In this document: piece by piece, positions 4,783 to 52,695 of the stretch
Layout of the letters: each line of letters starts with the position of its first letter
Position numbering within the stretch: position 1 is the stretch's first letter
Source: Cherax quadricarinatus
Taxonomy: Eukaryota > Arthropoda > Malacostraca > Decapoda > Parastacidae
Direction: 5' to 3'
Assembly: GCF_038502225.1 (NCBI RefSeq)
Contig: NC_091300.1
Span: forward strand, 45,041,188-45,105,187
Length of the DNA stretch: 64,000 nt
Translations under genes and position numbers: made by a program
Notes under the pieces: generated by a model
The model's input: the letters and a program-made list of their open reading frames with translations, nothing else
Told to the model about the DNA's origin: nothing
Databases searched by the model: none

Positions 4783-4847
4783 AATGTGTTGTCGTGTATG
4801 TCTTGGATCCAGACAGCCTGGAGATAATCCTGATCAGTTCACATAGT

Positions 4848-7325: not shown

Positions 7326-7671
7326 TGTTGCTACGTTAGGTAAAGAACACAGTTAGTAGGCTCATGTTAAGGCTGGTATACCTAGATATAGCCACCCACG
7401 GTACTCTGGTCGGGTGGTCGTGTCCTGCTCTGTCCTGCAGCTGTATTTCAGAAGTGTTTGTAGCAATAAATGATTCAATATGAGAGGACAAAGAATTTTT
7501 AAAATGTTAATGACTCTGAAGGTCACTTCACATTTAATATTGTAAATTAAAACTTATTGTCGAGGCTTAAATGAAACTGAGGTAACCGCTAGAAATGGTC
7601 ATTAGTTTTGATCATTATAATTAACTAGTGGCCATCTCATTATTCAGCTAGGCTTAACAAAATGTTATTCG
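7326..7671. other. No gene seen
   Basis: Unique-looking, AT-rich toward the right. No open frame with recognisable domains. Confidence 0.5.
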
Positions 7672-26900: not shown

Positions 26901-27794
26901 ACACCCTGAGACTCAGTGGACACTATCAAGGGTCTCACGCTAGATGACACCCTGAGACTCAGTGGACACTATCTTTCAAGTGTCTCACGCTAGATGACAC
27001 CCTGAGACTCAGTGGACATTATCTTTCAAGTGTCTCACGCTAGATGACACCCTGAGACTCAGTGGACACTATCTTTCAAGTGTCTCACGCTAGATGACAC
27101 CATGAGACTCAGTGGACACTATCTTTCAAGTGTCTCACGCTAGATGACACCCTGAGACTCAGTGGACACTATCTTTCAAGTGTCTCACGCTAGATGACAC
27201 CCTGAGACTCAGTGGACACTATCTTTCAAGTGTCTCACGCTAGATGACACCCTGAGACTCAGTGGACACTATTTTTCAAGTGTCTCACGCTAGATGACAC
27301 CCTGAGACTCAGTGGACACTATTTTTCAAGTGTCTCACGCTAGATGACACCCTGAGACTCAGTGGACACTATTTTTCAAGTGTCTCACGCTAGATGACAC
27401 CCTGAGACTCAGTGGACACTATCTTTCAAGTGTCTCACGCTAGATGACACCCTGAGACTCAGTGGACACTATCAAGTGTCTCACGCTAGATGACACCCTG
27501 AGACTCAGTGGACACTATCAAGTGTTTCACGCTAGATGACACCCTGAGACTCAGTGGACACTATCTTTCAAGTGTCTCACGCTAGATGACACCCTGAGAC
27601 TCAGTGGACACTATCTTTCAAGTGTCTCACGCTAGATGACACCCTGAGACTCAGTGGACACTATCTTTCAAGTGTATCACGCTAGATGACACCCTGAGAC
27701 TCAGTGGACACTATCAAGTGTCTCACGCTAGATGACACCCTGAGACTCAGTGGACACTATCAAGTGTCTCACGCTAGATGACACCCTGAGACTC
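20918..27794. repeat. Satellite-like array 3, 50-bp unit
   Basis: About 138 head-to-tail copies of a 50-bp unit whose core is tgtctcacgctagatgacac, preceded by agtggacactatctttcaag. Copies differ by few bases. A 46-bp form lacks four bases (ctat then caag). Unit variants with catt in place of cact recur at 100, 150 and 200 bp, mostly 150. The units carry stop codons, so no long frames appear. The unit contains the inverted pair gtctca and tgagac. Confidence 0.98.
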
Positions 27795-27965: not shown

Positions 27966-30900
27966 CGAAGTGTTGTTGGTGTAAGTGCTGTATTGTTGGT
28001 GTAAGTGCTGTATTGTTGGTGTAAGTGCTGTATTGTTGGTGTAAGTGCTGTGTTGTTGGTGTAAGTGCTGTATTGTTGGTGTAAGTGCTGTGTTGTTGGT
28101 GTAAGTGCTGTGTTGTTGGTGTAAGTGCTGTATTGTTGGTGTAAGTGCTGTGTTGTTGGTGTAAGTGCTGTATTGTTGGTGTAAGTGCTGTGTTGTTGGT
28201 GTAAGTGCTGTATTGTTGGTGTAAGTGCTGTATTGTTGGTGTAAGTGCTGTATTGTTGGTGTAAGTGCTGTGTTGTTGGTGTAAGTGCTGTATTGTTGGT
28301 GTAAGTGCTGTGTTGTTGGTGTAAGTGCTGTATTGTTGGTGTAAGTGCTGTATTGTTGGTGTTAGTGCTGTATTGTTGGTGTAAGTGCTGTATTGTTGGT
28401 GTAAGTGCTGTGTTGTTGGTGTAAGTGCTGTATTGTTGGTGTAAGTGCTGTATTGTTGGTGTAAGTGCTGAATTGTTGGTGTAAGTGCTGTATTGTTGGT
28501 GTAAGTGCTGTGTTGTTGGTGTAAGTGCTGTGTTGTTGGTGTAAGTGCTGTGTTGTTGGTGTAAGTGCTGTATTGTTGGTGTAAGTGCTGTATTGTTGGT
28601 GTAAGTGCTGTGTTGTTGGTGTAAGTGCTGTATTGTTGGTGTAAGTGCTGTATTGTTGGTGTAAGTGCTGTGTTGTTGGTGTAAGTGCTGTATTGTTGGT
28701 GTAAGTGCTGTATTGTTGGTGTAAGTGCTGTATTGTTGGTGTAAGTGCTGTGTTGTTGGTGTAAGTGCTGTATTGTTGGTGTAAGTGCTGTATTGTTGGT
28801 GTAAGTGCTGTGTTGTTGGTGTAAGTGCTGTATTGTTGGTGTAAGTGCTGTATTGTTGGTGTAAGTGCTGTGTTGTTGGTGTAAGTGCTGTATTGTTGGT
28901 GTAAGTGCTGTGTTGTTGGTGTAAGTGCTGTGTTGTTCGTGTAAGTGCTGTATTGTTGGTGTAAGTGCTGTATTGTTGGTGTAAATGCTGTGTTGTTCGT
29001 GTAAGTGGTACATTGTTGGTGTAAGTGCTGTATTGTTGGTGTAAGTGCTGTGTTGTTGGTGTAAGTGCTGTGTTGTTCGTGTAAGTGCTGTGTTGTTCGT
29101 GTAAGTGCTGTGTTGTTCGTGTAAGTGCTGTATTTTTGGTGTAAGTGCTGTGTTGTTCGTGTAAGTGCTGTGTTGTTCGTGTAAGTGCTGTGTTGTTGGT
29201 GTAAGTGCTGTGTTGTTCGTGTAAGTGCTGTATTGTTGGTGTAAGTGCTGTATTGTTGGTGTAAATGCTGTGTTGTTCGTGTAAGTGGTACATTGTTGGT
29301 GTAAGTGCTGTATTGTTGGTGTAAGTGCTGTGTTGTTGGTGTAAGTGCTGTGTTGTTCGTGTAAGTGCTGTGTTGTTCGTGTAAGTGCTGTGTTGTTCGT
29401 GTAAGTGCTGTATTTTTGGTGTAAGTGCTGTGTTGTTCGTGTAAGTGCTGTGTTGTTCGTGTAAGTGCTGTGTTGTTGGTGTAAGTGCTGTGTTGTTCGT
29501 GTAAGTGCTGTGTTATTGGTGTAAGTGCTGTGTTGTTCGTGTAAGTGCTGTGTTGTTCGTGTAAGTGCTGTGTTGTTCGTGTAAGTGCTATGTTGTTGGT
29601 GCAAGTGCTGTGTTGTTCGTGTAAGTGCTGTGTTGTTTGTGTAAATGCTATGTTGTTGGTGCAAGTGCTGTATTGTCGTGTAAGTGCTGTGTTGTTCGTG
29701 TAAGTGCTGTGTTGTTCGTGTAAGTGCTATGTTGTTGGTGCAAGTGCTGTGTTGTTCGTGTAAGTGCTGTGTTGTTGGTGTAAGTGCTGTATTGTTGGTG
29801 TAAGTGCTGTATTGTTGGTGTAAGTGCTGTATTGTTGGTGTAAGTGCTGTGTTATTGGTGTAAGTGCTGTATTGTTGGTGTAAGTGCTGTATTGTTGGTG
29901 TAAGTGCTGTGTTGTTGGTGTAAGTGCTGTATTGTTGGTGTAAGTGCTGTATTGTTGGTGTAAGTGCTGTATTGTTGGTGTAAGTGCTGTATTGTTGGTG
30001 TAAGTGCTGTGTTGTTGGTGTAAGTGCTGTATTGTTGGTGTAAGTGCTGTATTGTTGGTGTAAGTGCTGTGTTGTTGGTGTAAGTGCTGTATTGTTGGTG
30101 TAAGTGCTGTATTGTTGGTGTAAGTGCTGTGTTGTTGGTGTAAGTGCTGTATTGTTGGTGTAAGTGCTGTATTGTTGGTGTAAGTGCTGTGTTGTTGGTG
30201 TAAGTGCTGTGTTGTTGGTGTAAGTGCTGTATTGTTGGTGTAAGTGCTGTGTTGTTGGTGTAAGTGCTGTGTTGTTCGTGTAAGTGCTGTATTGTTGGTG
30301 TAAGTGCTGTATTGTTGGTGTAAGTGCTGTGTTGTTCGTGTAAGTGGTACATTGTTGGTGTAAGTGCTGTATTGTTGGTGTAAGTGCTGTGATGTTGGTG
30401 TAAGTGCTGTGTTGTTCGTGTAAGTGCTGTGTTGTTCGTGTAAGTGCTGTATTGTTGGTGTAAGTGCTGTGTTGTTCGTGTAAGTGCTGTGTTGTTCGTG
30501 TAAGTGCTGTGTTGTTGGTGTAAGTGCTGTGTTGTTGGTGTAAGTGCTGTGTTGTTGGTGTAAGTGCTGTGTTGTTCGTGTAAGTGCTGTGTTATTGGTG
30601 TAAGTGCTGTGTTGTTCGTGTAAGTGCTGTGTTGTTCGTGTAAGTGCTGTGTTGTTCGTGTAAGTGCTATGTTGTTGGTGCAAGTGCTGTGTTGTTCGTG
30701 TAAGTGCTGTGTTGTTTGTGTAAATGCTATGTTGTTGGTGCAAGTGCTGTGTTGTTCGTGTAAGTGCTGTGTTGTTCGTGTAAGTGCTGTGTTGTTCGTG
30801 TAAGTGCTATGTTGTTGGTGCAAGTGCTGTGTTGTTCGTGTAAGTGCTATGTTGTTGGTGCAAGTGCTGTGTTGTTCGTGTAAGTGCTGTGTTGTTGGTG

Positions 30901-31845
30901 TAAGTGCTGTATTGTTGGTGTAAGTGCTGTATTGTTGGTGTAAGTGCTGTATTGTTGGTGTAAGTGCTGTATTGTTGGTGTAAGTGCTGTGTTGTTGGTG
31001 TAAGTGCTGTGTTGTTGGTGTAAGTGCTGTATTGTTGGTGTAAGTGCTGTATTGTTGGTGTAAGTGCTGTGTTGTTGGTGTAAGTGCTGTATTGTTGGTG
31101 TAAGTGCTGTATTGTTGGTGTAAGTGCTGTGTTGTTGGTGTAAGTGCTGTATTGTTGGTGTAAGTGCTGTGTTGTTGGTGTAAGTGCTGTGTTGTTCGTG
31201 TAAGTGCTGTATTGTTGGTGTAAGTGCTGTATTGTTGGTGTAAGTGCTGTGTTGTTCGTGTAAGTGGTACATTGTTGGTGTAAGTGCTGTATTGTTGGTG
31301 TAAGTGCTGTGTTGTTGGTGTAAGTGCTGTGTTGTTCGTGTAAGTGCTGTGTTGTTCGTGTAAGTGCTGTATTGTTGGTGTAAGTGCTGTGTTGTTCGTG
31401 TAAGTGCTGTGTTGTTCGTGTAAGTGCTGTGTTGTTGGTGTAAGTGCTGTGTTGTTGGTGTAAGTGCTGTGTTGTTCGTGTAAGTGCTGTGTTATTGGTG
31501 TAAGTGCTGTGTTGTTCGTGTAAGTGCTGTGTTGTTCGTGTAAGTGCTGTGTTGTTCGTGTAAGTGCTATGTTGTTGGTGCAAGTGCTGTGTTGTTCGTG
31601 TAAGTGCTGTGTTGTTTGTGTAAATGCTATGTTGTTGGTGCAAGTGCTGTGTTGTTCGTGTAAGTGCTGTGTTGTTCGTGTAAGTGCTATGTTGTTGGTG
31701 CAAGTGCTGTGTTGTTCGTGTAAGTGATGTGTTGTTCGTGTAAATGCTATGTTGTTGGTGCAAGTACTGTGTTGTTCGTGCAAGTGCTGTGTTGTTCCTG
31801 TAAGTGCTATGTTGTTGGTGTAAGTGCCGTGTTGTTGGTGTAAGC
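27966..31845. repeat. Minisatellite 4, 20-bp unit
   Basis: About 194 copies of gtaagtgctgtattgttggt with frequent variants (tgttg for tattg, ttcgt for ttggt, gcaag for gtaag). Phase is kept for 3.9 kb apart from a one-base slip near 29675. Three units make 60 bp, so on the minus strand the frames stay open for up to 667 codons, reading repeats of TALTPTIQHLHQQ. These are artefacts. A rare variant with gtggtacattg recurs at about 29007, 29287, 30347 and 31266. Confidence 0.98.
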
Positions 31846-32256: not shown

Positions 32257-33354
32257 GGTAGTCACGTCAGTTTACATGCCCAGATATGATATGTTAGCAT
32301 TTTAGGTGCTGGAGGTGATGCCTCACCTGTGTTATGTTGGTGTACGGACTGTTGGACCAAACGTTGTGAAAAGGTGTTGAGGGTGATGCCTCACCATTTT
32401 AGAGTCAAGAAAAAGTTGAGATTAGAATGACTGGAAATATAGGAAAGGCAAAGAGCAGTAGATATCACAGGAGTAGAGAGTGTTGGAGAGAAGGAATTCC
32501 GCTTAACACATGAGAAGGCAGAGTTTATGGAATCGGAAGGGTAGCCAAGACGAAAGAATTTTGGCTATGTTTCTGCAGGACCCACCTGTCTGGTGGAATG
32601 ACTGTGTCGGTGAAGGCCTGGAAGGCCTACCTTTTGAGGGGTTAGTGATGTCTCTAATGTTTCTTCAAGGCCATAGTCCCACCGACAATATTTATATGTA
32701 ACTACCCAGTTTTGAGGTCTGATAATTTTCCCTCCTGAGCTCTCCAGTTTCGCCCAGAGGTGTGTTTTGCATAGCCAGTTTTGCTAATTGCACATTACTT
32801 TGAGACACTGGGCTGATAATGTAATTTTCTATTATGTACAATAATTTTTTTCACTCTTTTCGTGACTAATGTTCATAATTTTTATATGAAATGCCTGTTA
32901 TACTTCTGCAAAAAGAGATGTGTGATAATGAACACTAATGCTGTTTATAGAGTTTCTAAATTTATAATTTTTATTTTGATGTAAATCAGTTTACTTTTAT
33001 ATAATTGTGTATACTTTTTATGTAATTAATGTGTACAGAGATAAACCAGTCAGCTGTATTGAATTTTGTGTCATGTTTAGTAAAACGCATCAACGTAAGT
33101 GTTTGGCCAACACTGAGGTGTAATGGCGCATTTTCCTAGTTTAACAGTAAAACTAAGGAGCGTGACTGTGGCATCATTTGGCAGAAAACTTGATTACCTT
33201 TACATTAAACGAGTTTCACATGTCTGCAGACTACCAGTGTTCATTGTAGGAATAATACATGTTTTTAGATAATAAATGTTAATTTTGCTTTTCTGTGTAA
33301 AAGAAAATTGCACCAAGGCTGTGCTTGATGCAGTTTTCTTAAATTTCTTGGTGA
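32253..33354. other. No recognised gene
   Basis: Two near-copies of ggtgatgcctcacc (about 32311 and 32381), itself a small palindrome. A 63-codon frame at 32510-32701 has no known domain. AT-rich from 32700. Confidence 0.45.
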
Positions 33355-33374
33355 ATTTTGTTTCCCCAGACATT
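33355..33374. repeat. Target-site duplication of the large LINE, left
   Basis: attttgtttccccagacatt, identical over 20 bp to 48681-48700. Confidence 0.95.
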
Positions 33375-33916
33375 TTTTTTTATATTTTATTTAAAAACGC
33401 AATACACAATTATACATGTAGACAATGTAAACAATGAAACGTAACCATTATATATAACAACAAAAAGCTCCACGTTCCCTACCTTAGAACTAAACTTATA
33501 CATAAGAAAACACACGTTAAACTAAAAAAGTTTGATACCCCTCCAAAAAAAAAAAACCCAACCATCACACATAACATACATTTAACTAAACTAAAGACAG
33601 CCTACAGCTTCATATACAGGTGGGTTTATTACATCCAAAACTGCAGACATAAACACAATATGCAATATAACCCAAAGAATGTCACAGGTATTTACATGTT
33701 ACATAAAACTGTATGTACGAAGACATTCTCAATTATCCAAAAATTCTTTACACACTTATTATTATTGTATATTAAACTTCATATACAAATACATAATACA
33801 TAACACCTAAAAAATTACGAAACAAATAAAGGTTAGAAAATAATAATCTCCACACCTCACCACAGAAAAACTAAACACAGTATAATATAACAAATGATTC
33901 GTTCCACCTCACTTCC
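33375..33916 (-). other. LINE distal 3' UTR with polyA signal
   Basis: AT-rich. On the minus strand AATAAA lies at 33391-33386, about a dozen bases before an A run that ends at the target duplication. This marks the RNA 3' end used for target-primed reverse transcription. Confidence 0.8.
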
Positions 33917-36900
33917 ATACACTACATTCATCCCACTAGCGAACAAACACTACATTCATCCTACAAGCGAACAAACACTACATTCATCCTACAAGCGAAC
34001 AAACACTACATTCATCCCACTAGCGAACAAACACTACATTCATCCTACAAGCGAACAAACACTACATTCATCCTACAAGCGAACAAACACTACATTCATC
34101 CTACAAGCGAACAAACACTACATTCATCCTACAAGCGAACAAACACTACATTCATCCTACAAGCGAACAAACACTACATTCATCCTACAAGCGAACAAAC
34201 ACTACATTCATCCCACTAGCGAACAAACACTACATTCATCCTACAAGCGAACAAACACTACATTCATCCTACAAGCGAACAAACACTACATTCATCCTAC
34301 AAGCGAACAAACACTACATTCATCCCACTAGCGAACAAACACTACATTCATCCTACAAGCGAACAAACACTACATTCATCCTACAAGCGAACAAACACTA
34401 CATTCATCCTACAAGCGAACAAACACTACATTCATCCTACAAGCGAACAAACACTACATTCATCCCACTAGCGAACAAACACTACATTCATCCTACAAGC
34501 GAACAAACACTACATTCATCCTACAAGCGAACAAACACTACATTCATCCTACAAGCGAACAAACACTACATTCATCCCACTAGCGAACAAACACTACATT
34601 CATCCTACAAGCGAACAAACACTACATTCATCCTACAAGCGAACAAACACTACATTCATCCTACAAGCGAACAAACACTACATTCATCCCACAAGCGAAC
34701 AAACACTACATCATCCTACAAGCGAACAAACACTACATTCATCCTACAAGCGAACAAACACTACATTCATCCTACAAGCGAACAAACACTACATTCATCC
34801 CACAAGCGAACAAACACTACATTCATCCTACAAGCGAACAAACACTACATTCATCCCACAAGCGAACAAACACTACATTCATCCTACAAGCGAACAAACA
34901 CTACATTCATCCTACAAGCGAACAAACACTACATTCATCCTACAAGCGAACAAACACTACATTCATCCTACAAGCGAACAAACACTACATTCATCCTACA
35001 AGCGAACAAACACTACATTCATCCTACAAGCGAACAAACACTACATTCATCCTACAAGCGAACAAACACTACATCATCCTACAAGCGAACAAACACTACA
35101 TTCATCCTACAAGCGAACAAACACTACATTCATCCTACAAGCGAACAAACACTACATTCATCCTACAAGCGAACAAACACTACATCATCCTACAAGCGAA
35201 CAAACACTACATTCATCCTACAAGCGAACAAACACTACATTCATCCTACAAGCGAACAAACACTACATTCATCCTACAAGCGAACAAACACTACATCATC
35301 CTACAAGCGAACAAACACTACATCATCCTACAAGCGAACAAACACTACATTCATCCTACAAGCGAACAAACACTACATCATCCTACAAGCGAACAAACAC
35401 TACATTCATCCCACAAGCGAACAAACACTACATCATCCTACAAGCGAACAAACACTACATCATCCTACAAGCGAACAAACACTACATCATCCTACAAGCG
35501 AACAAACACTACATTCATCCTACAAGCGAACAAACACTACATTCATCCTACAAGCGAACAAACACTACATCATCCTACAAGCGAACAAACACTACATCAT
35601 CCTACAAGCGAACAAACACTACATCATCCTACAAGCGAACAAACACTACATCATCCCACAAGCGAACAAACACTACATCATCCTACAAGCGAACAAACAC
35701 TACATTCATCCTACAAGCGAACAAACACTACATCATCCCACAAGCGAACAAACACTACATCATCCTACAAGCGAACAAACACTACATTCATCCTACAAGC
35801 GAACAAACACTACATTCATCCTACAAGCGAACAAACACTACATTCATCCTACAAGCGAACAAACACTACATTCATCCCACAAGCGAACAAACACTACATT
35901 CATCCTACAAGCGAACAAACACTACATCATCCTACAAGCGAACAAACACTACATTCATCCTACAAGCGAACAAACACTACATTCATCCTACAAGCGAACA
36001 AACACTACATTCATCCTACAAGCGAACAAACACTACATCATCCTACAAGCGAACAAACACTACATCATCCCACAAGCGAACAAACACTACATCATCCTAC
36101 AAGCGAACAAACACTACATCATCCTACAAGCGAACAAACACTACATCATCCTACAAGCGAACAAACACTACATCATCCTACAAGCGAACAAACACTACAT
36201 CATCCTACAAGCGAACAAACACTACATCATCCTACAAGCGAACAAACACTACATCATCCCACAAGCGAACAAACACTACATCCTACAAGCGAACAAACAC
36301 TACATCATCCTACAAGCGAACAAACACTACATCATCCTACAAGCGAACAAACACTACATTCATCCTACAAGCGAACAAACACTACATTCATCCTACAAGC
36401 GAACAAACACTACATCATCCTACAAGCGAACAAACACTACATCATCCTACAAGCGAACAAACACTACATTCATCCTACAAGCGAACAAACACTACATCAT
36501 CCTACAAGCGAACAAACACTACATCATCCTACAAGCGAACAAACACTACATCATCCCACAAGCGAACAAACACTACATCATCCTACAAGCGAACAAACAC
36601 TACATTCATCCCACAAGCGAACAAACACTACATCATCCTACAAGCGAACAAACACTACATTCATCCTACAAGCGAACAAACACTACATCATCCTACAAGT
36701 GAACAAACACTACATCCCACAAGCGAACAAACACTACATTCATCCTACAAGTGAACAAACACTACATCATCCTACAAGTGAACAATCACTACATCATCCT
36801 ACAAGCGAACAAACACTACATCATCCATCAAGCGAACAAACACTACATCCTACAAGTGAACAAACACTACATCATCCTACAAGTGAACAAACACTACATC

Positions 36901-39900
36901 ATCCCACAAGCGAACAAACACTACATCATCCCACAAGCGAACAAACACTACATTCATCCCACAAGCGAACAAACACTACATCATCCTACAAGCGAACAAA
37001 CACTACATCATCCCACAAGCGAACAAACACTACATTCATCCCACAAGCGAACAAACACTACATCATCCTACAAGCGAACAAACACTACATCATCCCACAA
37101 GCGAACAAACACTACATCATCCCACAAGCGAACAAACACTACATCATCCCACAAGCGAACAAACACTACATCATCCTACAAGCGAACAAACACTACATCA
37201 TCCTACAAGCGAACAAACACTACATCATCCTACAAGCGAACAAACACTACATCATCCCACAAGCGAACAAACACTACATCATCCCACAAGCGAACAAACA
37301 CTACATCATCCTACAAGCGAACAAACACTACATTCATCCCACAAGCGAACAAACACTACATCATCCTACAAGCGAACAAACACTACATCATCCTACAAGC
37401 GAACAAACACTACATCATCCTACAAGCGAACAAACACTACATCATCCTACAAGTGAACAAACACTACATCATCCTACAAGCGAACAAACACTACATCATC
37501 CTACAAGTGAACAAACACTACATCATCCCACAAGCGAACAAACACTACATCATCCCACAAGCGAACAAACACTACATCATCCCACAAGCGAACAAACACT
37601 ACATCATCCTACAAGCGAACAAACACTACATCATCCCACAAGTGAACAAACACTACATCATCCCACAAGCGAACAAACACTACATCATCCTACAAGTGAA
37701 CAAACACTACATCATCCTACAAGCGAACAAACACTACATCATCCTACAAGTGAACAAACACTACATCATCCCACAAGCGAACAAACACTACATCATCCCA
37801 CAAGCGAACAAACACTACATCATCCTACAAGCGAACAAACACTACATCATCCCACAAGTGAACAAACACTACATCATCCCACAAGCGAACAAACACTACA
37901 TCATCCTACAAGCGAACAAACACTACATTCATCCTACAAGTGAACAAACACTACATCATCCTACAAGCGAACAAACACTACATCATCCTACAAGTGAACA
38001 AACACTACATCATCCTACAAGTGAACAAACACTACATCATCCTACAAGCGAACAAACACTACATCATCCCACAAGCGAACAAACACTACATCATCCCACA
38101 AGTGAACAAACACTACATCATCCTACAAGCGAACAAACACTACATCATCCTACAAGTGAACAAACACTACATCATCCTACAAGCGAACAAACACTACATC
38201 ATCCTACAAGCGAACAAACACTACATCATCCTACAAGTGAACAAACACTACATCATCCCACAAGCGAACAAACACTACATCATCCTACAAGCGAACAAAC
38301 ACTACATCATCCTACAAGCGAACAAACACTACATCATCCTACAAGCGAACAAACACTACATCATCCTACAAGCGAACAAACACTACATCATCCTACAAGC
38401 GAACAAACACTACATCATCCCACAAGTGAACAAACACTACATCATCCTACAAGCGAACAAACACTACATCATCCCACAAGTGAACAAACACTACATCATC
38501 CTACAAGCGAACAAACACTACATCATCCTACAAGCGAACAAACACTACATCATCCTACAAGCGAACAAACACTACATCATCCTACAAGCGAACAAACACT
38601 ACATCCCACAAGCGAACAAACACTACATCCTACAAGCGAACAAACACTACATCATCCCACAAGTGAACAAACACTACATCATCCTACAAGTGAACAAACA
38701 CTACATCCCACAAGCGAACAAACACTACATCCTACAAGCGAACAAACATTTCATCATCCTACAAGCTAACAAACACTACATCATCCCACAAGTGAACAAA
38801 CATTTCATCATCCTACAAGCTAACAAACACTACATCATCCTACAAGCGAACAAACACTACATCATCCTACAAGCGAACAAACACTACATCATCCCTCAAG
38901 TGAACAAACACTTCATCATCCTACAAGCTAACAAACACTACATTCATCCCACAAGCGAACAAACACTACATCATCCTACAAGTGAACAAACACATCCTAC
39001 AAGCGAACAAACACTACATCATCCCACAAGCGAACAAACACTACATCATCCTACAAGCGAACAAACACTACATTCATCCTACAAGCGAACAAACACTACA
39101 TCATCCCACAAGCGAACAAACACTACATCATCCTACAAGTGAACAAACACTACATCATCCCACAAGCGAACAAACACTACATCATCCTACAAGCGAACAA
39201 ACACTACATCATCCTACAAGCGAACAAACACTACATCATCCTACAAGCGAACAAACACTACATCATCCTACAAGCGAACAAACACTACATCATCCCACAA
39301 GCGAACAAACACTACATCATCCTACAAGCGAACAAACACTACATCATCCTACAAGCGAACAAACACTACATCATCCTACAAGCGAACAAACACTACATCA
39401 TCCTACAAGCGAACAAACACTACATCATCCTACTAGCGAACAAACACTACATCATCCTACAAGCGAACAAACACTACATCATCCCACAAGCGAACAAACA
39501 CTACATCATCCCACAAGCGAACAAACACTACATCATCCTACAAGCGAACAAACACTACATCATCCCACAAGCGAACAAACACTACATCATCCTACAAGCG
39601 AACAAACACTACATCATCCTACAAGCGAACAAACACTACATCATCCTACAAGCGAACAAACACTACATCATCCTACAAGCGAACAAACACTACATCATCC
39701 CACAAGCGAACAAACACTACATCATCCTACAAGCGAACAAACACTACATCATCCCACAAGCGAACAAACACTACATCATCCTACAAGTGAACAAACACTA
39801 CATCATCCTACAAGCGAACAAACACTACATCATCCTACAAGCGAACAAACACTACATCATCCTACAAGCGAACAAACACTACATCATCCTACAAGCGAAC

Positions 39901-42900
39901 AAACACTACATCATCCCACAAGCGAACAAACACTACATCATCCTACAAGCGAACAAACACTACATCATCCTACAAGCGAACAAACACTACATCATCCTAC
40001 AAGCGAACAAACACTACATCATCCCACAAGCGAACAAACACTACATCATCCTACAAGCGAACAAACACTACATCATCCTACAAGCGAACAAACACTACAT
40101 CATCCTACAAGCGAACAAACACTACATTCATCCTACAAGCGAACAAACACTACATCATCCTACAAGCGAACAAACACTACATCATCCTACAAGCGAACAA
40201 ACACTACATCATCCTACAAGCGAACAAACACTACATCATCCTACAAGCGAACAAACACTACATCATCCTACAAGCGAACAAACACTACATTCATCCTACA
40301 AGCGAACAAACACTACATCATCCTACAAGCGAACAAACACTACATTCATCCACAAGCGAACAAACACTACATCCTACAAGCGAACAAACACTACATCATC
40401 CTACAAGCGAACAAACACTACATCATCCTACAAGCGAACAAACACTACATCATCCTACAAGCGAACAAACACTACATCCTACAAGCGAACAAACACTACA
40501 TCATCCTACAAGTGAACAAACACTACATCATCCTACAAGCGAACAAACACTACATCATCCTACAAGCGAACAAACACTACATCATCCTACAAGCGAACAA
40601 ACACTACATCATCCTACAAGCGAACAAACACTACATCATCCTACAAGCGAACAAACACTACATCATCCTACAAGCGAACAAACACTACATCATCCTACAA
40701 GCGAACAAACACTACATCATCCTACAAGCGAACAAACACTACATCATCCCACAAGCGAACAAACACTACATCATCCTACAAGCGAACAAACACTACATCA
40801 TCCTACAAGCGAACAAACACTACATCATCCTACAAGCGAACAAACACTACATCATCCTACAAGCGAACAAACACTACATCATCCTACAAGCGAACAAACA
40901 CTACATCATCCTACAAGCGAACAAACACTACATCATCCTACAAGCGAACACTACATCATCCTACAAGCGAACAAACACTACATCATCCTACAAGCGAACA
41001 AACACTACATCATCCTACAAGCGAACAAACACTACATCATCCTACAAGCGAACAAACACTACATCATCCTACAAGCGAACAAACACTACATCATCCTACA
41101 AGCGAACAAACACTACATCATCCTACAAGCGAACAAACACTACATCATCCTACAAGCGAACAAACACTACATCATCCTACAAGCGAACAAACACTACATC
41201 ATCCTACAAGCGAACAAACACTACATCATCCTACAAGCGAACAAACACTACATCATCCTACAAGCGAACAAACACTACATCCTACAAGCGAACAAACACT
41301 ACATCATCCTACAAGTGAACAAACACTACATCATCCTACAAGCGAACAAACACTACATCATCCTACAAGTGAACAAACACTACATCATCCTACAAGCGAA
41401 CAAACACTACATCCTACAAGCGAACAAACACTACATCATCCTACAAGCGAACAAACACTACATCATCCTACAAGCGAACAAACACTACATCATCCTACAA
41501 GCGAACAAACACTACTTCATCCCTCAAGTGAACAAACACTACATCATCCCACAAGCGAACAAACACTACATCATCCTACAAGTGAACAAACACATCCTAC
41601 AAGCGAACAAACACTACATCATCCTACAAGCGAACAAACACTACATCATCTTACAAGCGAGCAAACACTACATCCTACAAGCGAACAAACACTACATCTT
41701 ACAAGCGAGCAAACACTACATCCTACAAGCGAACAAACACTACATCATCCCACAAGCGAACACTACATCATCCTACAAGCGAACAAACACTACATCCTAC
41801 AAGCGAACAAACACTACATCATCCTACAAGCGAACAAACACTACATCATCCTACAAGCGAACAAACACTACATCATCCTACAAGCGAACAAACACTACAT
41901 CATCCTACAAGCGAACAAACACTACATCATCCTACAAGCGAACAAACACTACATCATCCTACAAGCGAACAAACACTACATCATCCTACAAGCGAACAAA
42001 CACTACATCATCCTACAAGCGAACAAACACTACATCATCCTACAAGCGAACAAACACTACATCATCCTACAAGCGAACAAACACTACATCATCCTACAAG
42101 CGAACAAACACTACATCCTACAAGCGAACAAACACTACATCATCCTACAAGCGAACAAACACTACATCCTACAAGCGAACAAACACTACATCATCCTACA
42201 AGCGAACAAACACTACATCATCCTACAAGCGAACAAACACTACATCATCCTACAAGCGAACAAACACTACATCATCCTACAAGCGAACAAACACTACATC
42301 ATCCTACAAGCGAACAAACACTACATCCTACAAGCGAACAAACACTACATCATCCTACAAGCGAACAAACACTACATCATCCTACAAGCGAACAAACACT
42401 ACATCATCCTACAAGCGAACAAACACTACATCATCCTACAAGCGAACAAACACTACATCATCCTACAAGCGAACAAACACTACATCATCCTACAAGCGAA
42501 CAAACACTACATCATCCTACAAGCGAACAAACACTACATCATCCTACAAGCGAACAAACACTACATCATCCTACAAGCGAACAAACACTACATCATCCTA
42601 CAAGCGAACAAACACTACATCCTACAAGCGAACAAACACTACATCATCCTACAAGCGAACAAACACTACATCATCCTACAAGCGAACAAACACTACATCA
42701 TCCTACAAGCGAACAAACACTACATCATCCTACAAGCGAACAAACACTACATCATCCCACAAGCGAACAAACACTACATCATCCTACAAGCGAACAAACA
42801 CTACATCCTACAAGCGAACAAACACTACATCATCCTACAAGCGAACAAACACTACATCATCCTACAAGTGAACAAACACTACATCATCCTACAAGCGGAC

Positions 42901-43275
42901 AAACACTACATCCTACAAGCGAACAAACACTACATCATCCTACGAGCTAACAAACACTACATCATCCTACAAGCGAACAAACACTACATCATCCTACAAG
43001 CGAACAAACACTACATCATCCTACGAGCGAACAAACACTACATCATCCTACAAGCGAACAAACACTACATCATCCTACAAGCGAACAAACACTACATCAT
43101 CCTACAAGCGAACAAACACTACATCATCCTACAAGCGAACAAACACTACATCATCCTACAAGCGAACAAACACTACATCATCCTACAAGCGAACAAACAC
43201 TACATCATCCTACAAGCGAACAAACACTACATCATCCTACAAGCGAACAAACACTACATCATCCTACAAGCGAAC
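33917..43275. repeat. Minisatellite 5, 27/28-bp unit, inside LINE 3' UTR
   Basis: About 340 copies of a unit starting acaagcgaacaaacactaca and ending tcatcct or ttcatcct. The 28-bp form dominates at 33.9-35.3 kb, the 27-bp form from about 36 kb rightward, and a 24-bp form is scattered. Variants with ctagcg cluster at the left end, gtgaac variants at 36.7-39.1 kb. Plus-strand open frames of up to 778 codons reading HPTSEQTLH, NKHYIILQA or YKRTNTTSS are the three frames of the repeat and not genes. Confidence 0.98.
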
Positions 43276-43998
43276 TTACACAATCACGTATATTTAGTAA
43301 TATTTTTCAAATATAATTTCCATTTTTAAGTAACAAACTTCTTCTACCATATAATAAAATATACATAGTCATTACTATTAAACATTAACTTAAACAAGTA
43401 CTATATTCTTATTCTACAGACCGCAGCATTACTTGCCTCACCATCCTAACCCTACTTAACACATTGTACATGAACACGTCCTTATATACCCATCACTCGT
43501 CAATAATATTCATTGAACTTCACCGAATACTAATATACAACCCATACTGAGTACATGAAATTCTCTCTTACATACTGCTATATACATTTAATGTATGATA
43601 AAAATCACACACATTACATTATCTCATTATTAGCAGTACATTTGGTACACAGACATATTTATCACGCCCGCATGTCCTTTGCTTTAATACAACCACCAGT
43701 CCTGATAATACATTACAACATATTCCAAATTTAACTTATCCATAACATACATCAGTAAACCATCCTGAGTATGACCGTATACTTTTCACATTCACACAAA
43801 TATTGCTCATTTCCATGTCCATAAAAATCTTAACAACTTTTCCCTTACGAACCACCACAAACTTACTTAAAACACACTCCACAATTACGCTGCCATTTCA
43901 CACCATATTAAGGAACTCCTCATACGTTCCCAAATTCTGAGACGAGCCCGGTGCAACACCTGAAATTCCTAACACAACCCCCCCCACTTTTTTTTTTC
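43276..43998 (-). other. LINE proximal 3' UTR
   Basis: Non-coding stretch between the ORF2 stop and the array, AT-rich. No second gene seen. Confidence 0.7.
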
Positions 43999-46900
43999 TC
44001 ACTCCGCCAACAAACCTCTGACATTCATACTTCGATATCCTTCAGGAAAAGCCCTTTCCCATCTACTTCCGTATATCCCCCTATTACGACTAAGTGTTTT
44101 GTACATTGTTGCAGCCAATACCTTCTTTCGCACCACCCAATCCCCATTACCCCTCATGGCCCATGATACGAAAACAAAATCCGCTATGATGTACACCAAA
44201 GCACGCTGCACAGACTCTTCCACACCTCCCACATCTAAACTCAATGCCCTTAATACCGATATCCCTCCCCCACCCACCCTCCTCAAAATCCCACCCATCC
44301 ACTCCCGTATACACTCCAAATTTTTACAAAAATATACTACATGAAAAGCTGTCTCCCTATCCCCACACACCCTACATACGTCCTCCACCATCAACCCTCT
44401 CTCCCGAAGCACCACACCAGACGGCAATATTCCATGAAGGAAACGAAACATTACCTCTCTCACTCTTGGTCTGATGCGCACCAACCGCAACCTTACCCAA
44501 ATGTCTCCCCATGCATACATTGGGTATATGCCCTCAACATTTGCAATCACCCTCACCCCTACAGCACGCTCCAGAACACCTACCCGTATCCTAGACGGAT
44601 CTCTAACATACAATAAAGCTCGCAGCACATCCTCACACTCTTTCATCTCTGATCCTACCCACCACCTTCGTGCCTCCTCATATAATGCTTGCACACCCTT
44701 CCCCACACGACCTTCCACTCGGAGAAACCCCCTCTTCAAATATATACACTTAACCCTTAATCTTATATCTATTAAACCCAATCCACCTTTGTCGACCGGT
44801 AGCATAACAACACTCCTACCCAACCAGTCACACCCAGAACCCCATATATAACGAAAAACCTTTTTTAGCATTCTAGTTATGTCCGGTCCTGCCAACGGAT
44901 ATACTGCTGCCACATGCCAGACCATACTATATAACATTACATTCACCACTATTACACGTTGATGTATCGTCAAATGCATGGGTCTCAAAACATTTAACCT
45001 ACCCACCAACCTATCCACTGCCCTCCCAGAATTAACCATCCGTGCCTCCCCGGCATTCCCCATATAAATTATCCCACACACCTTTAGTCTATCCACCACA
45101 CACCAACGCACAGCTGTTTCCCATCTCGCCCTCCCTACCCAATTCCCTAAGACCAATAATTTCGATTTCTCCACATTCACTTTTAAACCTGTAACTCCTT
45201 CAAAACCACCAATTACATCCTCCACCTCATGTAAACTTTCCTCCCTGCTCATTAGAATTGTTGTATCATCCACATACCCTATTATTCCCATCCCTCCATT
45301 CTCCACACCACGATCCACCCCTAAACATTTCCCCACTGCCCTGTAAAAAGGGTCCTGTATACAAGCAAACAACAGTTGAGACAGAGGACAACCCTGCCTT
45401 ATGCCTCTACCCATTGAAACCCACTCTCCCAATTTCCCATTCACCTGCACACGTACACCTACCCTATTATACAAAGTCTCAATCCAACGCACCATCTCTT
45501 CCCCAAAACCCTGCCTCCGTAAGATATGCCACAGTGCCTCTCGTTCTACGCAATCATACGCAGCCTGCCAATCCAATGCTAAGACACCTCCCCCCCCCTT
45601 TATTCTCCCCCTCCATACTTTCCACAAAATCTTTTATTATTCCATGTCCCTCATACATCGTCCTCCCAGGCACCCCATACTGACCTCTCGCAACAACTCT
45701 ATCTATCACGCACTTCAGCCTGTTCCCCAAGATTTTTGCGAATATCTTATAATCAGCACATAACAACGACAACGCCCTGTAGTTCTGCACTGTAGTAGGG
45801 CCTTCCCCTTTTGGAATCAATACTACTACTGCGGTACGCTGCAACTCACCCATCCTCCTCTCACTTTTCATCACATTCATCAGGTTCACTAAAAAATCAT
45901 TCAACACACTCCAATGCTTCACATAGAATTCACAAGGTAACCCATCTATACCTGGCGCTTTACCTCTCGCCATATTCTCCAAAGCTCTCCATACCTCCCC
46001 CTCTTCAATATCCCCTCCCAATGCCATACGATCACTTCCACTCAGCACACAAGATACATTCTCTCCCAATCTCTCTAAATCCTCACCGTTCACTCCTACA
46101 CTCCGCAAATATTTTCCAAACCAACTATCCAGAAAACCACTCATACCCTCAGTAGTTCGCAACTCCTGACCCTTCGTATACCCACCTAAGTTCTCGTGTA
46201 CTACCAGCTTATCAATTTCCATTGCCAACCTGCGTCTCCGCTGGCCCCGTAACACACAGGCTGACGGCCTGTCACCCCAAATCGCCTCCTCTAACCCACC
46301 TTGCACCCTCGCCTCATCAAATCTCTCATTGTGCATATCTCTTATCTGCCACTTTAACGCTTCAATTTCCTCCATTGGATACACACCTACCACAGCACCC
46401 CTCTCATAACAACCCTGCAACCGCCCCTCTAAATACTGTTGAAGCCCATATGTCATCCATGCCTCATTCTTTCCCCTTCGCACATAATATTGCCTGATCC
46501 TCCTCTTCGCAACCCCATCCCACCACCCCAATAAATCGCTTGCACTCTTACCCCCACCCCATAAGTCCTCCCACAAACTTTCAAAATCCGCTCCCTCCAT
46601 CCCCTCACCCAGTAGTCGTACATTCATCTTCCAGTACCCCAAATATCTCTTAGGCAAACCGTCCCAATTTAAATCAGCATAAACCGCCCTATGATCTGAA
46701 TAAACGACATTCACCGTCTGCACCCGCGTCACCCTCACACCCCTTGTCACATACAACCTATCTAGTCGTGCAGCATAGCCCTTTCTATGAAATGTGTGCT
46801 CTATCTCGCAATCCCCTCCATCAACTATATCCCTCAATCCCACACCTCTCAATAGATCCCCTAAACCTGCCAAAAAACACCCTGCCCCCCTCGGTTCCAC

Positions 46901-47331
46901 ATCCTTCCTACGCACCACACAGTTCCAGTCGCCACCAACTATTGTCACTGACGGTAATGACCGCAAATAATATACCAATACATTATTCACAAATTCATTC
47001 TTTACCCTTACATCATTCTCAGCCGGCACATACACACAAACTACTGCCATCCTCTCACCTCTCCACCACCCATCTATTCTTAACACACGACCCCCCCCCC
47101 TTCACTCCTAAGAACAACAAACGGGCTCGTCTCTCGGATCAGGATTCCCACCCCTCCCTTCATTCACTCCGAATACATCACAAACACTCTGTACCCATCC
47201 ACCTCCAATTCCCTTCCCAGCTTGAAATTATGTTCCTGCACAAAAACAATGTCTATAGCATAACACCTTAAAAATCCCTTTACCCACAGACGCTTCTCAC
47301 TCGCACACAATCCATTAATATTCACTGTCAT
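43999..47331 (-). pseudogene. LINE ORF2: endonuclease and reverse transcriptase
   Basis: The start ATG is at 47331, 11 bp after the ORF1 stop. About 1110 codons. The endonuclease opens with MTVNINGLCASEKRLW; catalytic residues are visible in FVQEHNFK (Glu), VGGDWNCVV (Asp, Asn) and SDHRAVYADL (Asp, His). RT: KAPGIDGLPCEFY, IPKGEGPTTVQNYRALSLL, motif A LALDWQAAYDCV, motif B GIRQGCPLS, motif C GYVDDTTIL (Val where many LINEs have Ala). A C-terminal Cys/His knuckle reads CRVCGDRETAFHVVYFC. Three defects: a TGA at codon 56 (47166-47164), a frame change at a 10-C run (47091-47100) and one at a 9-C run (45590-45598). All catalytic residues are otherwise kept. Group: L1/Tx1, from RT and endonuclease style. 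Confidence 0.92.
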
Positions 47332-47342
47332 GCACCGGAAAC

Positions 47343-48598
47343 CTACTTATGTGATTTCACCCTCTGCCCCATTTCATCTTTCACTAACACGCTTCCAGTG
47401 TGTCTGCTTCTTCCACTTTTCTCTCCACTGCCCACTTGTGGCTTCCCCTGATCCAACACCGGACCAGGCATACCTTTAGAGCTCCCACGCACCACATCAA
47501 CCCACGGCTTTTTTCCCGGTCTCTGTGCCGGGGTCAAAACATCATCCGTGTCGGAATATGTCGCCGCACTCTTACGGTTGACACTCTCCGCATCCATTTC
47601 CAACTCACTGGATGCCTCCCTGTGAATCTCAACATTCACCTCAATCACTTCCACCACTCCTGGCGAATCATCTGCCATGTTTGCCAATCTTCCAAGTTGC
47701 TCATCTTCAATCCAAACAGGACTCCTCACCATCCTCAAACTATCCTCAGAAACCTTCTTCTCAAAGGATTTTTCCTTCACGTTCACCAGTAGGCCTCCCT
47801 CTACCCGCACTTCATCACTCTGCACAGTCTTCCCGGTCTCCAAGGCAGATGCCTCACATCCCACTGTGACAGTGACGGGCTGGTACCCACCAGTGGCAGC
47901 TCACGCTCCACTTCCTCACTCCAGGAAGTGCCATTTCTATGTACAGGTGACTCATCAGCATGACCCACCTCCGGTTCTGGCTCTTTCACCAGCTCACTAC
48001 CTAGTTCCTGTCTCTGCTGCCATCTCCCACACTGGGCCGCCATATGGTCATATGCACCACATAACCTACACGTCTTCTGCTGCCCAGTGTAGTACACCAT
48101 TACCTGCGTCCTAAATGCGTCCAGTATGACGTAAGACGGGATGGAATGCCTCAACGTCATCTTGAACGTGAACGTACCATCCGGCAAGCCGGCATACGCC
48201 CCATCCGTCCATTTACCAGCCATAGCCAGGTGTACAGTTCCATACTGTTCAAATACATTCCGCAGGTCAGTCTTGTCCGCCTCAAATGGCACATTTCGGA
48301 CTTTCACCCATGTGTAATGCCTAGACACGTCGATGAGTCGAACACGTATCGCTAAATTAACGTACACACTCCCGTCCTGGTACTTGTCAACCAGCCGTTC
48401 ATACACTCCAGCTGATCTCAACTTGACGAAAATACGATAGGCACCATTTAGCGCCACACCATACAGTTCTTGATCCGCAACACCATAGGTGTCACGGATA
48501 ATTTGCGGTAAAAGCACTTGCGCAGACTGAGGCGTTATTGCACCACGCACCAATTCAAGGCACACCGTGTGCACACGCCTTCTCACAGACTGCGCCAT
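47343..48598 (-). pseudogene. LINE ORF1: RNA-binding protein with CCHC knuckle
   Basis: Start chosen at 48598 (MAQSVRRRVHTVC, in the context aacATGg) rather than an in-frame ATG 48 bp upstream, because it leaves a normal short 5' UTR. Residues about 95-170 resemble an RRM: YTWVKVRNVPFEADKTDL, VFEQYGTVHLA. A CCHC knuckle follows at about 177-190 (CRLCGAYDHMAAQC, spacing C-2-C-4-H-4-C). The C-terminal third is acidic and low complexity, ending RVKSHK. One frameshift occurs around 47870-47930. ORF1 of Tx1-group LINEs is known to bind element RNA; that role is inferred here from the domains. Confidence 0.85.
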
Positions 48599-48680
48599 GT
48601 TGTAAAAATATGTCTCCTCCAATGGCCAGCAGAGGGCAGTAGTCACACCTCCGTACTCTGCTCAGGTCAAGCGGCGATTG
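48599..48680 (-). promoter_or_regulatory. LINE 5' UTR, presumed internal promoter
   Basis: 82 bp between the right target duplication and the ORF1 ATG. It starts CAATCGCCGCTTGACC on the minus strand. Full-length LINEs usually carry an internal promoter here; no specific motif was identified. Confidence 0.4.
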
Positions 48681-48700
48681 ATTTTGTTTCCCCAGACATT
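48681..48700. repeat. Target-site duplication of the large LINE, right
   Basis: Identical over 20 bp to 33355-33374. Joining the outer flanks gives the pre-insertion site. Confidence 0.95.
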
Positions 48701-48831
48701 AGGGTTTCTTTTTTTTCCTTGACTAGCTGAAGCCAAGTGGTTACAGGTAGCTGAGACAGGTAGTCAAGGGGTGGGAGTATTACGCAAGGCATTGTACAAA
48801 CGATTCATGAAATCATAATGAGACAATAATA

Positions 48832-48910
48832 TCACGGGTGGGAATTGAACTCATGGCGATTGAGTCGTTAAACTCCAGGCCAGTACGTATGTCACTGGTC
48901 CAGCTGGCTA
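48832..48910 (-). mobile_element. tRNA-derived SINE head, antisense
   Basis: On the minus strand GCCAGCTGGACCAGTGAC looks like an A box and GAGTTCAATTCCC like a B box, about 40 bp apart. It faces a related head on the plus strand at 49012-49090. Confidence 0.6.
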
Positions 48911-50664: not shown

Positions 50665-50822
50665 AATGTGTGTGTACTAACCTAGTTGTGGTTGCAGGGG
50701 TCGATTCATAGCTCCTGGCCCTGCCTCTTCACTGGTCGCTACTCAGTCACTCTACCCGCTCCATGGTCTTTATCATACCTCTCTTTAAAGCTATGTATAG
50801 ATCCTGTCTCCACTACATCAAT
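50665..50822 (-). mobile_element. LINE or repeat fragment, antisense
   Basis: Phrases such as ctgcctcttcactggtcgct and cctctctttaaagctatgta resemble the antisense ends of common crustacean LINEs, from memory. The CR1 copy is inserted directly after it. Confidence 0.4.
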
Positions 50823-52515
50823 TAAGATCAGGGACAAGATAGGCCCACTCAAAAGTTCCTCGGGTCAGCTCACTGACAGTGATAAGGAAATGTGTAGAAT
50901 TTTTAACACATACTTCCTCTCAGTTTTTACACAGGAGGATACCAGCGATATTCCAGTAATGATAAATTATGTAGAACAGGACGATAATAAACTGTGCACT
51001 ATTAGGGTCACAAGTGACATGGTCCTTAGGCAAATAGATAAATTAAAACCTAACAAATCCCCAGGCCCTGATGAACTGTATGCAAGGGTTCTAAAGGAAT
51101 GTAAAGAGGAGCTTAGCACACCTTTGGCTAATCTTTTCAACATATCACTACAAACTGGCATGGTGCCAGATAAGTGGAAAATGGCAAATGTGATACCTAT
51201 TTTCAAAACAGGTGACAGGTCCTTAGCTTCGAACTATAGACCAATAAGCCTAACCTCCATAGTGGGAAAATTTATGGAATCAATAATTGCCGAGGCAGTT
51301 CGTAGCCACCTTGAAAAGCATAAATTAATCAACGAATCTCAGTATGGTTTTACAAAGGGGCGTTCCTGCCTTACGAATTTATTAACTTTTTTCACTAAGG
51401 TATTTGAGGAGGTAGATCATGGTAATGAATATGATATTGTGTATATGGACTTCAGTAAGGCTTTTGACAGGGTCCCACATCAGAGACTATTGAGGAAAAT
51501 TAAAGCACATGGAATAGGAGGAGAAATTTTTTCCTGGATAGAGGCATGGTTGACAAATAGGCAGCAGAGAGTTTGCATAAATGGGGAGAAATCAGAGTGG
51601 GGAAGTGTCACGAGCGGTGTTCCACAGGGGTCAGTGTTGGACCCCCTGCTGTTCACAATCTACATAAACGACATAGATAAGGGCATAAAGAGCGACATCG
51701 GCAAGTTTGCCGATGACACCAAAATAGGCCGTCGAATTCATTCTGACGAGGACATTCGAGCACTCCAGGAAGATTTGAATAGACTGATGCAGTGGTCGGA
51801 GAAGTGGCAGATGCAGTTTAATATAGACAAATGCAAAGTTCTAAATGTTGGACAGGACAATAACCATGCCACATATAAACTAAATAATGTAGTTCTTAAT
51901 ATTACGGATTGCGAAAAAGATTTAGGAGTTCTGGTTAGCAGTAATCTGAAACCAAGACAACAGTGCATAAGTGTTCGCAATAAAGCTAATAGAATCCTTG
52001 GCTTCATATCAAGAAGCATAAATAATAGGAGTCCTCAGGTTGTTCTTCAACTCTATACATCCTTGGTTAGGCCTCATTTAGATTATGCTGCACAGTTTTG
52101 GTCACCGTATTACAGAATGGATATAAATTCTCTGGAAAATGTACAAAGGAGGATGACAAAGTTGATCCCATGTATCAGAAACCTTCCCTATGAGGATAGA
52201 CTAAGGGCCCTGAAACTGCACTCTCTAGAAAGACGTAGAATTAGGGGGGATATGATTGAGGTGTATAAATGGAAGACAGGAATAAATAAAGGGGATGTAA
52301 ATAGTGTGCTGAAAATATCTAGCCTAGACAGGACTCGCAGCAATGGTTTTAAGTTGGAAAAATTCAGATTCAGGAAGGATATAGGAAAGTACTGGTTTGG
52401 TAATAGAGTTGTGGATGAGTGGAACAAACTCCCAAGTACCGTTATAGAGGCCAGAACGTTGTGTAGCTTTAAAAATAGGTTGGATAAATACATGAGTAGA
52501 TGTGGGTGGGTGTGA
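50823..52515 (+). CDS. CR1-like reverse transcriptase (partial)
   Basis: About 564 codons without a stop. The frame stays open upstream into unrelated sequence as far as an ATG at 50686, so the true protein start is lost. Motifs: KSPGPDELYARVLKE, NYRPISLTSIVGKFME, GFTKGRSCLTNLLTFF, motif A YMDFSKAFDRVP (about 51441), motif B GVPQGSVLDPLLF (about 51616), motif C KFADDTKIG (about 51703), then the thumb LGVLVSSNLKP and ANRILGFISRSI, and the C-terminal VVDEWNKLPS. Catalytic Asp residues are intact. It would copy element RNA into DNA at a nick, but without the endonuclease and 5' end it cannot be autonomous. Apparently the youngest CR1 copy here. Confidence 0.9.
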
Positions 52516-52695
52516 GTTAGACCTGATAGCTTGTGCTACCAGGTCGGTTGCCGTGTTCCTCCCTTAAGTCAATGTGACCTGACCTGACTAGGTTGGGTGC
52601 ATTGGCTTAAGCCGGTAGGAGACTTGGACCTGCCTCGCATGGGCCAGTAGGCCTTCTGCAGTGTTCCTTCGTTCTTATGTTCTTATGTTCTTAAT
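52516..52695 (+). other. CR1 3' UTR and octamer tail
   Basis: Includes tgacctgacctgactaggtt, ctgcctcgcatgggccagta and the tail of gttcttat units. The next LINE starts immediately after in the opposite orientation. Confidence 0.8.

Follow-up and report, generated by a model that had tools for sequence, protein, structure and literature searches.

A minisatellite site in the 3′ untranslated region (3′UTR) of a long interspersed nuclear element (LINE) family of the crayfish Cherax quadricarinatus varies between insertions from a single unit to many kilobases. The long arrays most likely arose, or underwent turnover, once the insertions were in place, starting from short seeds that had been inherited, and the LINE most likely spreads a minisatellite seed, not a finished satellite. 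We studied this family from one of its members, which carries a 9.4-kb array and lies on the minus strand of a 64,000-nt stretch of contig NC_091300.1 (positions 45,041,188 to 45,105,187 of the forward strand; assembly GCF_038502225.1), hereafter the window. The genome searched was the 3.95-Gb assembly of 7,334 contigs.

A single insertion contains the array

The window copy is bracketed by a perfect 20-bp target duplication, ATTTTGTTTCCCCAGACATT, which occurs exactly twice in the window. Between the duplications lies a LINE unit of 15,306 bp, ordered on the minus strand as 5′ end, open reading frame 1 (ORF1) region, ORF2 region, proximal 3′UTR, array, distal 3′UTR, AATAAA and a short A-rich tail (Table 1). 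Tandem Repeats Finder (TRF) reported a single array in the LINE (27 bp × 346.9, 95% matches), and parsing into units gave 346 full units, mostly of 27, 28 or 24 bp, plus one fused to the tail. We then joined the two flanks into an empty-site query (220 + 199 bases). Among the 40 places listed of 897 candidates, two were the window's own flanks and the remaining 38, copies of an older repeat with 74-80% identity, cross the join without a large gap. Since these 38 copies run over the join, the entire 15.3 kb is one insertion into the older repeat, and the array sits inside the transposon. The original prediction, made from the letters of the window, had proposed the duplication around one unit, the order of the parts, about 340 repeat copies and the position of the array within the element, and all of these were borne out. 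The older repeat at the landing site (window 33155-33374 and 48701-48900) is dispersed and at least about 315 bp long, and the right flank of the insertion looks tRNA-derived by eye.

The array site is family-wide and hypervariable

At up to two mismatches, the junction patterns matched 246 upstream and 231 downstream array junctions genome-wide, corresponding to about 240 copies, and the common form of the 5′ end matched 209 places. The junction and 5′-end patterns read backwards, which served as a control, gave 0 matches in the genome. Following the search for other copies that the original prediction had suggested, 20 further copies were read over 10 kb. Every one has the site in the same position, and the number of units ranges from 1 in L025 to about 282 in L030; in one of them, L037, the proximal 3′UTR upstream of the site is lost.

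Distances between the two junctions could be taken for 59 paired copies, for many of which the span is given by junction positions and not by a full sequence read. The shortest span measures 42 bp (1 unit) and the longest 29.9 kb, and the median is 346 bp. Ten copies have about 1 unit, 8 have 2 units, 8 have 3-5, 11 have about 8-28, 8 have about 39-112, and 14 spans exceed 3.5 kb; the largest amount to several hundred units, judged by span. More than one unit is thus present in 49 of the 59, as a variable array between constant ends, and the window copy, with its 9.4-kb array, ranks fourth in size. Mid-span samples of the 10.8-kb, 14.1-kb and 29.9-kb spans consist of array sequence, and several arrays lie on contigs of at least 20 Mb. 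The usable pairs were drawn from 121 upstream and 110 downstream junction sites. Of the 246 and of the 231 pattern matches, the first 100 each were covered, all of them exact, so that mutated copies are under-sampled. One short proximal match (C76, query 1-680) and three partial distal matches were left out of the pairing, and one distal match (C88) entered it via the downstream-junction pattern matches instead. The array site is a family-wide, hypervariable feature and is not peculiar to the window insertion, to which the original prediction had referred.

The family is young and apparently mostly full length. In a search with a piece of ORF2, the 40 places listed of 3,856 candidates, the window's own included, have 98-100% identity. 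The 209 5′ ends set beside the 246 and 231 junctions, counts that come from different patterns, suggest that most counted copies reach the 5′ end and that many are full length. Target duplications were looked for in nine further copies for which both ends were available; they measure 9-13 bp in six and were not convincingly found in L024, L029 and L041. A tree of the 17 copies whose 3′UTR is nearly complete on both sides of the array is star-like, with array lengths scattered over it. No allelic duplicates were seen among the 20 fetched loci in shared flanks of more than 300 bp; L028 and L036 are overlapping stretches of one contig that carries two different LINE copies.

L044-L048 and L050 look like a sister subfamily, in which some 75 bp have been lost from the distal 3′UTR (about 334-408 of the query). 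Of its six fetched members, L050 has two units and the five others a single one; L025, another single-unit copy, lacks the deletion.

Two overlapping unit families occupy the same site

The type 1 unit, GTTCGCTTGTAGGATGATGTAGTGTTT, is 27 bp long, with a 28-bp form that has one extra A, and occurs in 3,531 exact copies genome-wide. The type 2 unit, GTGGGAYGAATGTAGTGTATGGAAGTGAG, is 29 bp long and has 3,068 exact matches, single-copy sites counted in. Type 2 represents the 3′UTR stretch of type 1 in another, overlapping register, and both are found at the same site. It occupies nearly all of a 2.5-kb array (C2:12875049-12877502), the sequenced 1.5 kb of a 7.5-kb array (C2:21484861) and the sequenced 0.8 kb of a 14-kb array on C45. 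In L034 and L037, type 1 is followed by type 2 side by side in one insertion, the type-2 run comprising about 3 copies in L034:816-910 and about 31 in L037:8306-9184 (28-bp form). The original prediction had pictured one satellite being spread, a view that does not accommodate the second, overlapping 29-bp unit expanded in other copies.

In single-unit LINE copies, the unit is ordinary 3′UTR sequence. When the single-copy form (L045, L046) was compared with itself at lags of 15-44, the longest exact self-match was one of 6 bp at lag 29, where a window of 11 bases has 10 identical, followed by one of 5 bp at lag 28. The lags 28 and 29 are the spacings of short direct repeats and coincide with both unit lengths, which fits birth by slippage. 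The ends of the long type-1 arrays also resemble the two-unit allele: the 28-bp form stands at the tail end in eight of ten (not in L038 and L043), and the 27-bp form comes first in nine of ten (not in L038; the upstream junction of L037 is lost). Ten unit variants that occur at least four times were each seen in a single array among the 21 parsed (the window copy, L026, L028 or L040).

The first 100 matches listed of the 3,531 and of the 3,068 fall into ten unit clusters. Eight of these are next to a LINE array junction, the other two lie 6.5 kb from a LINE junction on the same strand or 5.5 kb from a LINE 5′ end, and none of the ten clusters in the matches listed for both units is a LINE-independent long array.

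Long arrays share no unit order, and six of ten carry fewer private mutations than expected

Ten of the 21 parsed arrays, those with at least 30 units, were written as strings of unit types and compared in 45 pairs, with one array of each pair reversed as a control. No unit order in common was found between sites in these pairs: the best block averaged 11.4 bits forward and 12.0 bits reversed, and the forward score was higher in 5 pairs, equal in 28 and lower in 12. In simulations with four sources and six runs each, descendants of a single array shared hundreds of bits when unchanged, and their common order exceeded the reversed control up to about 50 duplications or deletions per branch before it faded. 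A common unit order as evidence of inheritance was rejected on this comparison.

An array unchanged since insertion should hold private substitutions at the rate of the LINE body. We applied this clock with L031 and pieces covering less than 40% of a part excluded, and with columns of fewer than 8 letters skipped. Units with private substitutions were fewer than expected in the window copy (12 observed against 51 expected), L027 (0 against 17.5), L040 (7 against 53), L028 (2 against 19), L032 (3 against 11) and L038 (3 against 18.5), with Poisson P values from 0.0045 to 3e-15. The homogeneity of these six of the ten long arrays exceeds what the age of their bodies allows.

Length differences are already present in the youngest insertions. 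Among the copies with more than 2 kb of body compared, the least private change was found in L024, L029 and L030 (4 private substitutions in 5,935 bp, 3 in 5,922 and 2 in 2,223), which have 2, 39 and 282 units, respectively; 39 and 282 units thus occur in copies with about 0.05-0.1% private body change. Truncation inside the array was uninformative as a test of reverse transcription through it, since many copies seem full length. The array of L030 (L030:1705-9290) is odd in containing 53 one-off units, some with complex indels, next to only 2 private substitutions in the body, and its contig is an unplaced one of 20 kb. This may reflect an error of assembly or an array that predates the insertion.

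Arrays probably grow at each site after landing

We consider it likely that the 3′UTR site is prone to slippage, that a short seed passes through RNA and that growth at the DNA level then proceeds independently at each site after landing. In the single-copy form, short direct repeats make up two overlapping pairs, one with a spacing of 28 bp and one with 29 bp, and misalignment between them would produce a duplication, either of type 1 with its 27/28 bp or of the 29-bp type 2. By way of its RNA, the LINE would then bring a seed, short (1-3 units) at the least, to each new site. There the chromosomal copy would grow and turn over by replication slippage, unequal exchange or break-repair copying, independently of other sites, and could reach hundreds of units. 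We infer that growth follows landing rather than accompanies cDNA synthesis; the slippage step and the enzymes at work are presumptive. Of the two routes offered by the original prediction, expansion of a few copies after landing is the better supported, and retrotransposition of the whole array retains a weak hint, the excess of private variants in L030 and L037 described below, with no common unit order. Spread of the satellite by target-primed reverse transcription, which it also proposed, likewise holds for a short seed at least, and multi-kilobase arrays lack the common order.

Several observations weigh against growth from seeds after landing. The margin in the lag test is small, 5-6 bp compared with 4 bp at the next best lag, and a single-copy allele with direct repeats could be a contracted array, as L044 appears to be. 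In the clock test, L043 (11 observed against 14.9 expected) and L029 (0 against 0.5) are uninformative, and private variants are in excess in L030 (20 against 6.6) and L037 (8 against 2.1). What a low mutation load indicates is recent turnover, and this need not mean recent growth. The very young L030 has as many as 282 units already. Over the 18 copies compared, arrays are not longer in older bodies (Spearman -0.28, p 0.26), and no steady growth is evident. Growth with age was rejected on this lack of correlation between unit number and private change in the body; together with L030, it leaves room for an early burst of growth near insertion.

The long arrays might instead be inherited whole, from sources that carry hundreds of units and transcribe and reverse-transcribe them, with later remodelling erasing the order. 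L030, with its very young body, 282 units and many private variants, looks as if its array predates the insertion; L037 also has private variants in excess; and the 5′-end and junction counts, in suggesting many full-length copies, imply that reverse transcriptase (RT) can make long products. We nevertheless regard whole inheritance as unlikely, given that none of the 45 pairs shares a unit order, that young copies differ as widely as 2, 39 and 282 units, that unit types differ between copies, and that the complex indels among the odd units of L030, on its short unplaced contig, are possibly assembly noise. Quite unlikely, too, is growth during target-primed reverse transcription, with the RT slipping or jumping back on a tandem template. 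It would suit the big length differences at near-zero body age and the absence of a correlation with age, but the older arrays of the window copy, L040 and L038 should then have gathered private mutations as their bodies did, which they have not, barring homogenisation by conversion at a later stage.

The assembly of tandem arrays is difficult, and the lengths reported here are those of the assembly. That they are largely assembly artefacts is nonetheless very improbable, since the site has the same position in the 20 copies read, two families of units exist, the end units match, and contigs of at least 20 Mb carry several of the arrays; errors may alter exact lengths but would hardly create two unit families. 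We give almost no credence to an independent genomic satellite captured by, or inserted into, the LINE. No supporting point was found for it, the unit is plain 3′UTR sequence in single-unit copies, and the ten unit clusters in the matches listed either adjoin a LINE array junction (eight) or have a LINE junction or 5′ end 5.5-6.5 kb off (two).

Coding regions and surroundings of the element

The C-terminal frame of the ORF2 region matched RVT_1 in Pfam (3.7e-15) and, under the curated cut-off, zf-RVT (6.3e-05), while the broken N-terminal frame gave a weak match to Exo_endo_phos (4.4e-4; 20.5 bits versus a cut-off of 24.5). The ORF2 region of the window copy is split into separate frames, so that its reading is interrupted, and the ORF1 region had no Pfam match at 1e-3. 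In a search of solved structures (PDB), the RT frame matched R2 and L1 ORF2 chains, the best at 1.2e-13; as the R2 and L1 matches are about equal in strength, we assign the LINE to no clade. The element was classed as a LINE by its RVT_1-type RT, target-site duplication, A-rich 3′ tail and, as read by eye, absence of long terminal repeats (LTRs). Its RT frame has a closer relative in protein P0001 (45% identity over 97%) and matches P0002, the uncharacterized protein LOC128695937 of C. quadricarinatus (50% identity over 59% of the query), which represents a related LINE in a crayfish. The assembly also has 22 matches to the anti-LPS factor family PF11630, which is typical of decapods and horseshoe crabs, and these agree with the crayfish RT relative in indicating a decapod; the family had no match in 14 control genomes, but as these seem to be prokaryotic, the control carries little weight for animals.

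Table 1. Parts of the LINE insertion in window coordinates.
Feature	Position	Strand	Evidence and remarks
Target-site duplication, LINE 3′ end side	33355-33374	.	Identical to 48681-48700
Short A-rich tail and AATAAA	33375-33391	-	TTTATT on the plus strand at 33386-33391; similar tails in other copies
Distal 3′UTR	33383-33916	-	40 genome matches listed of 566 candidates, 93-100% identity, own included
Type 1 minisatellite, 27/28 bp, sense GTTCGCTTGTAGGATGATGTAGTGTTT, about 347 units, 9.36 kb	33919-43275	-	TRF, unit parsing
Proximal 3′UTR	43276-43980	-	40 matches listed of 308 candidates, 96-100% identity, own included; stops at the first unit
ORF2 region, C-terminal open frame, RT and zf-RVT-like part	43999-45627	-	RVT_1, zf-RVT and PDB matches
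ORF2 region, N-terminal open frame, endonuclease-like part and RT start	45554-47086	-	Open frames; Exo_endo_phos
ORF1 region, open frames 47801-48646 and 47343-47864	47343-48646	-	CCHC-like motif by eye
Element 5′ end	48644-48680	-	Common form of the 29 bases 48644-48672 at 209 places, up to 2 mismatches
Target-site duplication, LINE 5′ end side	48681-48700	.	Identity to the other copy; empty-site matches over the join

One foreign sequence, 97-99% identical between copies, lies in or against the ORF2 part of four copies (L032:5931-8096, L034:3393-4299, L037:3478-5386 and L038:2083-3738) and upstream of a fifth (L029:7836-10000). Judged by these positions, it appears to be a repeated nested insertion into the LINE. 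Beside the window copy, further RT-like open frames at 50686-52515 (plus strand) and 52675-53732 (minus strand) apparently belong to other LINE types, as read by eye. Among 150 listed RVT_1 matches genome-wide, about 45 lie in open frames that are all 1,246 aa long, mostly with an identical score of 140.9 bits, and probably derive from another very young, abundant retroelement.

The window contains four more minisatellite arrays, at 1322-2333, 4840-7326, 20919-27794 and 27970-31844, with units of about 13-30, 25, 50 and 20 bp, respectively. Outside the LINE, tandem repeats with a period of at least 7 cover 15,821 of 48,654 window bases, compared with 14.8% in the non-LINE parts of the 20 fetched loci, two of which overlap.

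Relation to known elements and significance

Internal tandem repeats are present in the Xenopus Tx1 element. The variable number tandem repeats (VNTRs) of the hominoid SVA and LAVA elements are remodelled at the DNA level through microhomology with their end units conserved, according to the passages covered of one study (PMC4432496). As far as those passages go, SVA and LAVA resemble the LINE here in having an internal VNTR between fixed ends with conserved end units, and differ from it in that the arrays here reach many kilobases without an internal order common to copies. SVA and LAVA are non-autonomous and mobilised in trans by L1, whereas the LINE family has a predicted RT-encoding region of its own.

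Minisatellites downstream of coding regions are also described for plant elements, in the parts of the two papers covered. In soybean Gmr9, the stretch from the coding region to the LTR holds five minisatellites that interleave, with as many as 149 repeats at a locus (PMC3305785), and most satellites of Lathyrus sativus were traced to Ogre 3′UTR repeats (PMC7004042). Ogre and Gmr9, as portrayed there, have in common with our LINE that a single site after the coding region holds at least two unit families; they are LTR elements of the Ty3/gypsy Tat lineage, and the element here is non-LTR by its anatomy and RT matches. Recombination or strand transfer in the particle was hypothesised in those passages as the origin of Ogre-type repeats (PMC3305785; PMC7004042). 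LINE 3′ ends as sources of satellites are known from cetacean L1, HeT-A and chicken CR1, as the covered part of a review relates (PMC9659126); in its cases a LINE piece resembles a satellite monomer, and here the array stays within insertions with target duplications. Crayfish and other decapod genomes have very many satellite families, short-unit ones being abundant in crayfish, and the passages covered of these minisatellite accounts tie no family to a LINE 3′UTR site (PMC13130569; PMC7859515; PMC10454600).

A literature search over titles and opening abstracts, with most subscription papers outside its reach, returned no LINE with a multi-kilobase minisatellite at a fixed 3′UTR site. The statement of the original prediction that a LINE with a satellite 3′UTR is not known was too strong as a matter of principle, as the Ogre and Gmr9 minisatellites and the SVA and LAVA VNTRs are close analogues. 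Retrotransposon-borne VNTRs and 3′UTR minisatellites are already known from these analogues; what is new is a variant of the retrotransposon-borne VNTR in a LINE, and its main value is a replicated, datable set of array births.

With growth from inherited seeds as the favoured explanation, we lean, on balance, towards viewing this LINE as a dispersed satellite-birth device. The same microhomology-primed seed would stand at about 240 sites, with two overlapping unit families growing independently and fast to kilobases, and each insertion would be a dated replicate of array birth, growth, homogenisation and shrinkage. The birth of arrays and its speed are usually inferred from a few old loci; here about 240 insertions share a seed, and the LINE body, as a clock for each insertion, makes birth, growth and homogenisation measurable with replication. 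These observations suggest that short-unit satellites may be seeded over a minisatellite-rich genome without the satellite itself moving.

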